Source of the DNA: Selenomonas sputigena
GTDB lineage: Bacteria; Bacillota; Negativicutes; Selenomonadales; Selenomonadaceae
Assembly: GCF_026015965.1 (NCBI RefSeq)
Contig: NZ_CP110383.1
Coordinates: 1-64,000, forward strand
DNA length: 64,000 nt
Direction of reading: 5' to 3'
The notes beneath the pieces are model-generated. The model was given only the letters and a program-made list of their open reading frames with translations. It was not told where the DNA came from and did not search any database. The position numbers were made by a program, and so were the translations under genes. Below are positions 20,491 to 23,722 of the stretch, piece by piece. Position 1 is the stretch's first letter, and each line of letters begins with the position of its first letter.

Positions 20491-21672
20491 TCAGCCGTTT
20501 TTGACGTTGCTGTAGAAGACGATTGCGCCGAGCGCGTAGCCGGTGAGCATGAGAACTGCCATGGGAATCGCCGTATGGTCTCCTGCGATGCCGACGAGGG
20601 GCATCATGACGCCGCCGAGCACCATGGAGAAGAAGCCGATGAGAGCCGACGCTGCACCCGCGTTCCTGCCCTGGCGTGAGAGCGCGAGCGAGAAGCTCGC
20701 CGTTCCCATGACGGAGAGCGGCACGACGGTGATGAAGAGCAGGACGATGGTGAGCGCGAGCGGGGCGAATCCCGCAAGGAGGGAGGCAAGGAGGAGCGCA
20801 CTGCCGACGAGCGGTACGAGGAGCGAGGCCTTGAGCATGGAGATGTCCTTGACGCGTCCGGCGAGGCGTGCGGGCAGGAGTCCCGCGAGGAAGAGTCCCG
20901 TGCCGATGCCGCCGAAGATCAGGCTGTAGCCTTGCGCCGAGACGCCGTAGATGTTCTGAAAGACGAAGGAAGAGCCGGCGATGTAGGAGAAGAACGCGCC
21001 GAAGACGAAACACTGCACGAGGCAGTGGCCGAGAAAGTAGCGGTCGCGAAGGAGCGTGGGAAAGGCATGGAAACTCGCCGTCATGCTCTTTTGGCGCTTC
21101 CCTTCGGCCAGCGTCTCACGCGTTTTGAGCGTCCAGACGGCGAGGAGGACGCCGATGGCGGCGAGCACGGCGAAGACGATGCGCCACGAGGAGAAGACGA
21201 GGAGCTGTCCGCCGGCGACGGGAGCGAGGATCGGCGCGAGTCCGTTCACGAGCATGAGGATGGACAAGAAGCGCGTGAGCTCGACGCCCTCGGCTACGTC
21301 ACGCGCGATGGCACGCGCGATGACGATGCCGCTCGCGCCCGCAAATCCCTGCAGAAAGCGCAGTGCGAGAAAAGGTTCGATAGAGCTTGCGTAGAAGCAG
21401 CCCGCCGAGACGAGAGCGAAGGCGACCATGCCCGCAAAGAGCGGCCGTTTGCGCCCGTACATATCGCTCAAAGCCCCGAGGAAGATCTGCCCGATGGCCA
21501 TGCCGAGCAGCGTCATCGTCAAAGTCAGCTGCGTCGCCGAGGTCGAGGCGGAAAATTCTGCTGAAAGCTCGGGCAGAGCAGGCAGGTACATGTCGGTCGC
21601 CAGCGGCGCCATAGCCGACATTATGCCTAGAAAAATAGTCAGGCTTATGCGACGGAGTTTTGTCGTTTTCAT
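20491..21672 (-). CDS. Bcr/CflA family multidrug efflux MFS transporter
   Basis: The protein is about 393 aa with twelve predicted membrane helices. The start region MSAMAPLATDMYLPALPEL is the hallmark of Bcr/CflA drug-H+ antiporters, and the loop GALSDMYGRKRP is the MFS motif A. ATG 21672 (AGAAAGAAG upstream) is preferred. ATG 21702 is a possible alternative. The gene is convergent with the symporter and diverges from the ncRNA promoter at 21781. Confidence 0.9.
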   Translation of the reverse strand: MKTTKLRRISLTIFLGIMSAMAPLATDMYLPALPELSAEFSASTSATQLTLTMTLLGMAIGQIFLGALSDMYGRKRPLFAGMVAFALVSAGCFYASSIEPFLALRFLQGFAGASGIVIARAIARDVAEGVELTRFLSILMLVNGLAPILAPVAGGQLLVFSSWRIVFAVLAAIGVLLAVWTLKTRETLAEGKRQKSMTASFHAFPTLLRDRYFLGHCLVQCFVFGAFFSYIAGSSFVFQNIYGVSAQGYSLIFGGIGTGLFLAGLLPARLAGRVKDISMLKASLLVPLVGSALLLASLLAGFAPLALTIVLLFITVVPLSVMGTASFSLALSRQGRNAGAASALIGFFSMVLGGVMMPLVGIAGDHTAIPMAVLMLTGYALGAIVFYSNVKNG

Positions 21673-21780
21673 AAGTACACTTCTTTCTAGCAGATATTCC
21701 ATTAAAATACAGAGGGAACAGGGTTTCCCAGTTCGAGGGTCGTCGGATTGAAAAAAATTAGAAATCGTTGGCTTTATCCC

Positions 21781-21809
21781 TTGACTAAACCATTGTCCTA
21801 GAGTATAAT
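21781..21809 (+). promoter_or_regulatory. strong promoter of orphan ncRNA
   Basis: TTGACT (21781-21786), 17 bp, TATAAT (21804-21809). Start predicted near 21816. Confidence 0.85.
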
Positions 21810-21815
21810 TAAAAA

Positions 21816-22105
21816 CAAGAACAGAAGCTCCGTCGGACTTCCGGAAAAGCGGGATACGACGGAAGCCCAAGGGATGTCCTCCGCCATAGGGGACAACAAT
21901 CGGGTGGAGCCGAGGATTGGAACTGACCTCGCACAGCGTGCAGTACATTCGTACAAATCGATGGCTTTCAGCAGCCCGCGTCTCCCTTACAGGAGAAGCA
22001 CGATGCACACGGCGCGGATCAAGCCGCTCTTGGTACCCGTGGGGAGGACGTCCCGTCCAAGACCTCATCCCTTCATTTGCGCCGCGTTCTGCGGCGCCTT
22101 TTTTT
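21816..22105 (+). ncRNA. orphan structured ncRNA of about 290 nt
   Basis: A near-consensus promoter and a strong terminator (22080-22098 plus T7) delimit a transcript with no credible ORF and no downstream plus-strand gene before 23.8 kb, so it is not an mRNA leader. Visible pairings include CTCCGCC with GGGTGGAG around 21879-21908, GGACTTCC (21836-21843) with GGACGTCC (22046-22053) closing the ends, and a GTAC hairpin near 21942-21955. It lacks the diagnostic words of SRP RNA, tmRNA and RNase P RNA and is long for 6S RNA. The class is unknown. Confidence 0.65.
22080..22105 (+). terminator. terminator of orphan ncRNA
   Basis: GCGCCGC (22080-22086) pairs with GCGGCGC (22092-22098), followed by seven T. 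Confidence 0.85.
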
Positions 22106-22130
22106 GTTTGTGCAGAACCGTAAATAGAAA

Positions 22131-22157
22131 GAAGGGACGGGAAAGCCCCGCCCCTTC
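22131..22157 (-). terminator. terminator of acyl-CoA ligase gene
   Basis: On the minus strand GAAGGGGCGGG pairs with CCCGTCCCTTC, followed by TTTCTATTT. Confidence 0.7.
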
Positions 22158-22199
22158 CTCGCTTGCCGCCCTGCGCGGCATTTTCTTTTTGTGTGGGCC

Positions 22200-23678
22200 T
22201 CACTTATCCTCGCGATAGAGGCGTGCGATCTCGCGCTTGGCAATCTTTCCGGTCGAGGTGCGCGGCATTTCAGGAATCTGGCAGAACTCGCGCGGCACCT
22301 TGTAGACGGCGAGATTCTTCTGCAAGAACTTCTTCAAGGTGCGCATGTCGACCTCTTCGTTCTTCTTGACCGTGTAGTAGCAGGCGCCCGCCTGCCCGCG
22401 CAGAGGATCGGGAATGGCGATGACGGCGGCGTCCTCGATGCCGGGGAAGGAGTAGACGAGCTCTTCGATCTCGCGCGGGTAGACGTTCTCGCCCATGCTG
22501 ATGATCATGTCCTTGATGCGGTCGACGATGTAGACGAAGCCGTCCTCGTCCATGCGCGCGATGTCGCCCGTATGCAGCCAGCCGTCCTTGAGTGCACGAG
22601 CCGTCGCCTCGTCCTGATGCCAGTAGCCCTTCATGACGGTTGGCCCTTTGACGAGCAGCTCGCCCGCCATGCCTCGTGCGAGTTCCGTGCCGTCGGTGTT
22701 GGCGATGATGACCTCAAGCCCCTTCATGGGCACGCCGATAGAGCCGGGGCGGTAGTGACGCGGCGAGTCCATCGTGACGACGGGAGAGGCCTCGGAGAGT
22801 CCATAGACCTCGTAGATCGTGAGGCCGAACTTTTCGCGGTAGGCGGCAGCGATTTCCTGCGGCAGCGCCGTGCCGCCGATGCCCGTCAGGCGAAGGCTCT
22901 TGAGGTCTTCCGCATCTGCCTGACGCGTGAGGATGGCGCAGACGGAAGGCACGGCGTACATGATAGTGACCTTCTCGTCGCGGATGGCGCGGATCGTCTC
23001 CTTGGGCATGAAGCCGTTGACGATGACGATCGTGCCGCCGGCTGTGAGCGTCGCAAGGACGGAGCACGTCCAGGCAAAGCAGTGGTACATCGGCAGCACG
23101 CAGAGAACCTTGTCGTTCGGCGTGATGGAGTGATGCTCCATGACCTGATGCGCGTTCGTGCACTGGTTTCGATGACTGAGTACGGCGCCCTTGGGGGCGC
23201 CTGTCGTGCCCGAGGTGTAGATGATGACGCAGGGATTTTCCTCTGAGAAGATGTTCGAAAGCTTCGGCGCGGGCATGGCGCTTGCGGGCTTCATGACGTC
23301 GAGGAGGGGCAGCTGATGAAGCTCACCGCCGTATCCCTGCTGTCCGAGGTGGGATTCGAGGGGAAGCTCCTTTTCCGTCACGAGGTGACGCACGCCCGCG
23401 TCCTTGATGATGTAGGCGACTTCGCGCACGCTGAGCTGGTAGTTGAGCGGGACGGCGACAGCGCCGAGCGAGTTCACAGCGAGGTAGGCGATGAGGAGTT
23501 CGACGCGGTTATGGGAAAAGAGCGCGACGTGGTCGTGCGCACGGATTCCGGCGGCGTAGAAGCGGTCACGCGAGGCTCTCAGGGCTTCGCGCAGTTCGTC
23601 GTAAGTGATGCGGCGACCGCGGTCGATGACGGCGATGTCTTCGCCGCGCCCGTTTTGCAAGATTTCGTGCAGTAGCAT
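22200..23678 (-). CDS. AMP-dependent acyl-CoA synthetase/ligase
   Basis: The protein is about 492 aa in the ANL superfamily, activating a carboxylic acid with ATP and joining it to CoA. Motifs seen are the P-loop IIYTSGTTGAPKGAVLSHRN (about residues 151-170), YGLSEASPVVT, the hinge GWLHTGDIARMDEDGF and the C-terminal STGKIAKREI with the catalytic Lys. It resembles long-chain fatty acid-CoA ligases. ATG 23678 is chosen because AAAGGA sits 8 nt upstream. ATG 23687 overlaps that site. It has its own promoter and terminator. Confidence 0.92.
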   Translation of the reverse strand: MLLHEILQNGRGEDIAVIDRGRRITYDELREALRASRDRFYAAGIRAHDHVALFSHNRVELLIAYLAVNSLGAVAVPLNYQLSVREVAYIIKDAGVRHLVTEKELPLESHLGQQGYGGELHQLPLLDVMKPASAMPAPKLSNIFSEENPCVIIYTSGTTGAPKGAVLSHRNQCTNAHQVMEHHSITPNDKVLCVLPMYHCFAWTCSVLATLTAGGTIVIVNGFMPKETIRAIRDEKVTIMYAVPSVCAILTRQADAEDLKSLRLTGIGGTALPQEIAAAYREKFGLTIYEVYGLSEASPVVTMDSPRHYRPGSIGVPMKGLEVIIANTDGTELARGMAGELLVKGPTVMKGYWHQDEATARALKDGWLHTGDIARMDEDGFVYIVDRIKDMIISMGENVYPREIEELVYSFPGIEDAAVIAIPDPLRGQAGACYYTVKKNEEVDMRTLKKFLQKNLAVYKVPREFCQIPEMPRTSTGKIAKREIARLYREDK

Positions 23679-23722
23679 GGAACACATCCTTTATCTCTGA
23701 AAAAAACATTGCTCATAGCTGA

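Follow-up and report, generated by a model that had tools for sequence, protein, structure and literature searches.

Large, strongly structured, free-standing RNAs are, to our knowledge, few in bacteria, and several of the known large structured bacterial RNAs have central roles. Among the described systems, 6S RNA (RF00013) is a free-standing, strongly promoted, long and rod-like RNA, the CsrB/RsmZ-type sRNAs are free-standing genes with many hairpins that expose GGA in the loop, and T-box leaders (RF00230) have the sequence UGGNACC in their bulge. The putative RNA gene described here resembles each of them in part: it stands free behind a strong promoter, it is predicted to form a long rod, one of its hairpins exposes GGA in a hexaloop in members from three genera, and its UUGGUACC sequence recalls the T-box bulge. 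Objects of the same kind, found via conservation and covariation, are the orphan structured RNA motifs from surveys of intergenic regions, some of them in Negativicutes (PMC6429828, PMC8632094). These motifs were set against the present RNA by description and through Rfam; the gltD, ldh2, ilvD, potE and SLH motifs are tied to downstream genes, unlike this RNA. The present RNA is a new family of a familiar kind, the orphan structured noncoding RNA, new within the scope of Rfam 15 and of a literature search combining "structured noncoding RNA" with Selenomonas, which found no report.

The window, a 64-kb stretch of DNA from Selenomonas sputigena (genome G000), carries the putative gene on the plus strand at 21781–22105, between two minus-strand genes: an MFS transporter that starts near 21672 and an AMP-binding ligase at 22200–23687, the next large open reading frame (both named by Pfam). 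An earlier note on this DNA had described an RNA with its own strong promoter, a clear terminator and no ORF, and all three features are borne out. The near-consensus sigma-70-type promoter TTGACT-17-TATAAT (21781–21809, plus strand, 11/12) is unchanged in the congener G001; it is the one site found by the promoter scan versus 0.6 expected in shuffles, and it would place the transcription start near 21816, about 7 nt past the -10 box. An intrinsic terminator on the same strand, with an 8-pair stem (22079–22097) followed by a U-run to 22105, is also kept in the congener; on both strands of the region, the scan returned five terminator-like sites versus 1.8 expected. A second terminator-like hairpin is located 3' of the RNA's own terminator (22164–22190, plus strand) and is present in the congener too. 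The predicted transcript of about 290 nt is built round a conserved core of about 190 nt. No closed ORF of at least 10 codons occurs inside the 292-nt transcript of G000, and among six transcripts compared we found no ORF common to different genera, the sole clearly similar pair being that of G002 and G031 from one genus; thus, a conserved ORF of the kind expected for a small-protein mRNA or a dual-function sRNA was not found. Given a strong vegetative promoter, a structured RNA and a terminator at the sequence level, the locus would be expected to be transcribed.

Rfam 15 contains no family that matches the window at its gathering score, consistent with the earlier note, which saw no signature of SRP RNA, tmRNA, RNase P RNA or a riboswitch. 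At E≤10, the region 21680–22200 gave only fourteen sub-threshold matches, the best of which, suhB, reached 23.7 bits (cut-off 41) over the terminator.

The G000 transcript folds with a better energy than 200 of 200 dinucleotide shuffles (z -3.2). The reverse strand folds equally well against its shuffles (z -3.2), so the energy cannot pick the strand. The predicted structure, all on the plus strand, begins with a variable 5' hairpin, P1 (21827–21866), followed by the conserved core (21871–22054), for which folding, covariance-model matches and covariation agree. The core is closed by helix P2, GGGAUGUCCUCC/GGAGGACGUCCC (21871–21882 with 22043–22054, extended by 21884–21887 with 22039–22042). 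The ends had previously been proposed to pair as GGACTTCC with GGACGTCC, which is wrong: GGACTTCC (21834–21841) is part of the 5' hairpin, whereas GGACGTCC (22046–22053) lies inside the strand 22043–22054, whose partner is GGGATGTCCTCC (21871–21882), and this helix is seen in at least about 98% of sampled structures. Inside P2, the GGGACAA box (21890–21896) faces the CUUGGUACC box (22029–22037), forming GG/CC and CAA/UUG pairs with 22030–22037 round a GA/GUA internal loop. Next come hairpin P3a (21900–21913), called from the hairpin count versus shuffles, with a GUGGAG hexaloop having GGA at loop positions 3–5, and the long-range helix P8 (GAUUGG at 21915–21920 with CCGCUC at 22024–22029), obtained from RNAalifold, a column search and covariation and containing one U-C mismatch in G000. 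The inner domain comprises P3 (GUGC at 21938–21941 with GCAC at 22005–22008), found in about 40% of sampled structures, and P4' (AUCG at 21957–21960 with CGAU at 22001–22004), identified by the column search and covariation. It also includes hairpin P5, GGCU-UUCAGC-AGCC (21963–21976), the variable hairpin P6 (21981–21996), identified by folding, homolog alignments and a partial pair count, and the GCACGAUG box (21998–22005).

The congener G001, from the same genus (g1), has the RNA at the same locus, with a 181-base identical run ending at 22038. Between the two genomes, the core (21869–22056) shows two changes in 188 positions: the first makes U-G out of a U-A pair in P2, the second U-U out of U-G. 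The flanking coding ends differ at 7/173 and 6/130 positions, P1 (21826–21868) at 5/43 and the stretch 3' of the terminator at 5/89. Because the nearly neutral-looking spacer 5' of the promoter (21673–21780) is also well kept (2/107 changes), identity within the genus is weak evidence alone.

More distant homologs were identified by covariance models and one sequence pattern in 189 genomes from 30 genera of the Selenomonadaceae family. As a lower bound, the RNA occurs in ten genomes from five genera: g1 (G000, G001), g18, which is Mitsuokella (G067, G083), g28 (G028, G073), g2 (G002, G031) and g3 (G003, G105), as a single copy per genome where the copy number was reported. The carriers thus include a Mitsuokella, which belongs to Selenomonadaceae, and two "Veillonellaceae" RUG bins in g28. 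By DNA similarity, a BLAST search of 60 genomes matched only G000 itself and its congener, plasmid and phage records gave no match, and neither did an exact 30-mer in genome_contigs. A two-sequence model (R1) run on 151 genomes of the family added G067, G083, G028 and G073 (E 6.2e-11 to 1.7e-4), and a five-sequence model (R2) run on all 189 added G002 (E 6.8e-14) and G031 (E 9.6e-9). An eight-sequence model (R3) with strict filters returned only the eight known members from 380 genomes of the class Negativicutes; these filters missed the known members G003 and G105, and absence elsewhere is therefore weak evidence. With more candidates scored in 41 genomes, R3 added G003 (22.2 bits, E 0.003), and the pattern GCACGATG-N14-44-TTGGTAC added G105. 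The latter reaches 14.4 bits with R3, a score that falls among those of matches set aside (15.9 bits in G023, 13.7 bits for L057), and was accepted as a member because it is near-identical to G003 and has a neighbour of the same kind. In a control of 53 other loci covering 284 kb (29 of 30 6S loci and 24 of 33 non-member pattern loci), the R3 maximum was 11.6 bits. The results support the earlier suggestion of a possibly lineage-specific RNA: no Rfam family matches at its cut-off, and in what was searched all members belong to Selenomonadaceae.

The remaining candidates were rejected. Weak matches were set aside in 6 of 12 genomes for R1 (E 0.03–0.72; the alignment of L039 was inspected) and in 17 of 25 genomes for R2 (E 3e-4 to 0.38; eight alignments inspected), among the latter L058, which we take to be a coding sequence resembling prmC. 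Rescoring of all 25 set-aside loci with R3, including that of G023 from the 41-genome search, left nine at E≤1, with a maximum of 15.9 bits by partial matches; this best match, L108 of G023, covers neither GGGACAA nor GGUACC, and that of L057 spans 21 bases. A match in G152 (19.6 bits with R2) was not returned by R3. A degenerate pattern hit 36 loci in genome_contigs. Three of them (L078, L085, L105) had been identified as members before; among the remaining 33, L096 alone scored at E≤0.1 with R2 (12.4 bits, E 0.01), dropping to 11.6 bits and E 0.19 with R3. One viral contig matched the pattern without an R3 match. The short pattern matched 24 of the 189 genomes (25 rows), six of them members; when 23 of these loci were rescored (leaving out L128 of the congener and L141, the second row of G154), the five member loci alone passed. 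In G018, from the genus of G067, the contig gives only 40 bases before ychF, which starts at base 41, and absence there is uninformative.

The common core was analyzed in A7, a ten-row alignment fitted to R3; the R3 structure, from RNAalifold on eight of these sequences and the column search, makes the pairing counts lean towards it. GGGACAA and GGUAC are invariant in all ten rows, facing each other as GGGACAA and UUGGUACC-like sequences within the covarying closing helix. The core also has a long-range helix resembling GUUCGG/CCGAUC (P8; GUUCGA/UCGAAC in G083), which is the least regular one with 83.3% of cells paired, and the sequence GCASGAUG. P5 appears as GRCU-UNCAGC-AGYC in eight of ten rows, where all its cells pair, and is unaligned in G003 and G105. 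The GCACGAUG box is likewise kept in eight rows, being replaced by GCAGGAUG in the two Mitsuokella rows, which in P4' have one pair swapped from G-C to C-G and another broken. Matched variation was also observed by eye in P3 (GUGC/GCAC in G000, ACGC/GCGU in G073, CGGCAAA/UUUGCCG in G031) and in P6 (UCUCC/GGAGA, GCACCC/GGGUGC, GCAAU/AUUGC), two helices outside the R3 structure that were counted partly, on five sequences. Near P3a, the G073 RNA contains an extra stretch of about 165 nt (L038, about 1012–1178). With its inverted repeat ATCAATCCACGC...GCGTGGATTGA, this stretch resembles a hairpin element that was inserted and left the core motifs intact.

Over the ten sequences, 92.3% of 271 cells are paired. 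Two-sided changes occur in 14 of 30 pairs (shuffled mean 8.1), 35 cells are changed on both sides (shuffled mean 12.7), and the covariation score is 0.333 (shuffled 0.175), each of these values being reached by none of 500 shuffles; the number of further pair types is weakly above the shuffles (reached by 41/500). As a second control, sliding the partners by one to three columns brought pairing down to 33–46%. P2 shows two-sided changes in seven of its eight counted pairs. An excess of G-U over A-C cells (21 versus 9) is what would be expected with the plus strand as the RNA. The invariant bases cluster round the internal loop, in P8 and beside P5, and the helices drift by compensatory change. 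The earlier note had named a confident Rfam match, or a lack of both transcript and covariation, as what would speak against its reading; no such Rfam match was found, and covariation is well above both controls. The locus is very probably a conserved structured RNA gene.

Promoter-like sites precede all ten RNAs, nine of them identified by the scan. The scores are 12/12 in G067 (spacer 18) and G002 (spacer 16), 11/12 in G000, G001, G003 and G105, and 10/12 in G028, G073 and G031; the G083 site, TTGACA-17-TTTAAT, falls outside the rule of the scan and was read by eye. A CCCATAAG-like stretch is found just 3' of the -10 box, at the presumed start, in L035, L037, L038 and L051, and in a looser form in L036 and L052. 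Terminators at the 3' end were detected by the scan in both g1 and both g2 genomes and by eye in G028, G073, G003 and G105; in G003, the scan marks 1763–1783, directly 3' of the hairpin read by eye. For G067 and G083, the scan found no sense-strand terminator. In these two RNAs (L035, 1022–1264, minus strand; L037, 1459–1706, plus strand), the outer helix GACGAGC/GCUCGUC meets a U-tract directly, as read by eye, as if the whole Mitsuokella RNA were its own terminator hairpin.

The genomic neighbourhood differs between genera. We ran nine neighbour proteins against Pfam, eight of which gave families; the names clpX, ychF, ilvN, ilvC, CNNM and MBL are assumed from the translations. In g1, the RNA is flanked by the MFS and AMP-ligase genes; in g18, by a presumed clpX with a hypothetical gene and by a presumed ychF; in g28, by a mutY-like (L036) or presumably CNNM-like (L038) gene and, on the other side, by the presumed ilvN-ilvC; in g3, by a pyridine-nucleotide oxidoreductase and a presumed MBL-fold gene. 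Even the two g2 species differ, with an FAD oxidoreductase and metK in G002 and PHP- and HD-domain genes in G031. Beside the G002 RNA locus, a SAM riboswitch match (RF00162, 81.6 bits) is located 5' of metK (L051, 3146–3233, minus strand). No neighbour is common to different genera, and action in trans is therefore quite probable. A promoter, a terminator, a conserved structure and the lack of a conserved neighbour, by which a free-standing trans-acting noncoding RNA gene is recognized, are all found here.

Our main reading, to which we give a probability of about 0.5, is an autonomous core that would act in trans through a bound protein or ligand. As predicted from the anatomy of the RNA, the core would be a rod in which P2 is followed by the GGGACAA/CUUGGUACC internal loop, then P8 and then the domain of P3/P4', P5 and P6; once folded, it would hold a specific protein or small ligand and act in trans, with P1 and P3a as peripheral, lineage-variable parts. 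Action in trans through a protein or ligand appears the most likely mode because invariant bases lie round the internal loop, in P8 and beside P5, helices drift and neighbours are unrelated. The distribution of two RNA-binding proteins bears on this reading. CsrA was found in 9 of 11 genomes queried and Hfq in 8 of 10 member genomes. The exceptions for both proteins are the g2 genomes, G002 and G031, which at 1.6–1.7 Mb are 76–79% complete and leave the absence unproven. One Hfq match, in G105 (C97:3897–4076), has an internal TGA, perhaps an assembly error. Since the core persists in g2, together with promoter and terminator, where no match to either protein was obtained, its function probably requires neither Hfq nor CsrA, and an autonomous core is favoured over an Hfq sRNA or a CsrA sponge.

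An unlikely alternative is a CsrA-binding RNA, in which the GGA of P3a and that of GGGACAA would bridge a CsrA dimer, titrating or recruiting the protein. A P3a-type hexaloop with GGA at positions 3–5 occurs at the same place, on differing stems, in seven of nine transcripts (g1, g18, g28 and G003), versus 9–15% of shuffles (26% for the longer G073). The GGA of GGGACAA lies 13–15 nt 5' of it, counted by eye. One study describes CANGGANG apical hexaloops as high-affinity CsrA sites and gives 18 nt as the optimal spacing (PMC4894983). All seven hexaloop genomes encode CsrA, and neither g2 genome, whose transcripts lack the loop, has a CsrA match. However, CsrA is present in 167 of 189 family genomes, and this co-occurrence thus says little. 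The first loop base is G rather than A, G105 has CsrA and no such loop by eye, and G003 can form the alternative stem GAGCG/CGCUC, which leaves three genera in which the loop is secure. Counting hexaloops with at least four stem pairs, six of the nine transcripts have one GGA hairpin, G073 has two and two have none, in contrast to the many of CsrB/RsmZ-type sRNAs; the several GGA-bearing loops of a CsrB/Rsm sponge are not seen in these nine. The GGA count is in excess in G000 (13 versus 6.7; 0/500 shuffles) and G001 (11 versus 6.8; p 0.028), both of g1, whereas the other seven transcripts have ordinary counts (p 0.076–0.42). These counts, G105 and the g2 genomes all lower the sponge reading, and the large core, unlike CsrB-type RNAs, is not made of GGA loops and is kept where CsrA was not found.

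Equally improbable is an Hfq-assisted base-pairing sRNA, which might, for example, target ribosome-binding sites with the 5' strand of P2, a stretch rich in C and U. The independent gene, the U-tailed terminator and the presence of Hfq in most member genomes would suit such an sRNA, and by eye each of the five genera shows this CU-richness. However, the strand forms P2, and its covariation in seven of eight pairs indicates that it is normally paired; the g2 genomes without an Hfq match again argue against this explanation.

A cis-regulatory leader, active or relic, such as a T-box or riboswitch, is very unlikely. The earlier note's claim of no downstream gene stands for G000, where the next ORF (22200–23687) is on the minus strand, and fails for some homologs: the RNA lies just 5' of the presumed ilvN-ilvC in g28, and a same-strand gene comes next there, in g3 (MBL-fold) and in G031 (HD-domain). 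In each case, a terminator-like hairpin intervenes (by scan in G031, by eye in g28 and g3), and the g28 ilvN has its own TTGAAA-17-TATACT site 3' of the RNA's terminator. In g1, g18 and G002, the next downstream gene is on the opposite strand. Although UUGGUACC and the ilv neighbour in one genus recall T-box leaders, here the closing rod carries the motif on its 3' strand and the RNA has its own terminator. No T-box or riboswitch matched the region 21680–22200 at E≤10, and at E≤1 none matched the RNA at any of eight homologous loci, whereas the SAM riboswitch elsewhere in L051 was detected; the lack of a match to the Rfam models lowers both the T-box and the 6S assignment. Finally, a housekeeping RNA (6S, SRP, tmRNA or RNase P) in diverged form, for which the strong promoter, stable structure and size might speak, is hardly plausible, since none of these classes is among the weak Rfam matches, SRP RNA, tmRNA and RNase P RNA gave no match at the window or over the RNA in the homologous loci examined, RF00013 does not match the locus, and G000 has a separate 6S match above the cut-off (C1:2367189–2367367); a 6S match was obtained in 59 of 60 genomes searched, G000 included.

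The autonomous core can be extended, tentatively, to a fuller picture: an uncatalogued RNA class whose core, GGGACAA facing CUUGGUACC, might work in trans, without Hfq or CsrA, either as a ribonucleoprotein or as a regulator that binds a ligand, with a CsrA-binding hairpin possibly gained in some genera and linking it to the Csr network. For the Selenomonadaceae, the analysis provides an RNA without an Rfam 15 match and with a defined conserved core, together with ten sequences usable for the design of probes and mutants. In three genera, the GGA hexaloop looks like a CsrA site, which suggests a possible side role. If the core indeed works where Hfq and CsrA are both absent, it would give access to RNA regulation that bypasses these classic chaperones.
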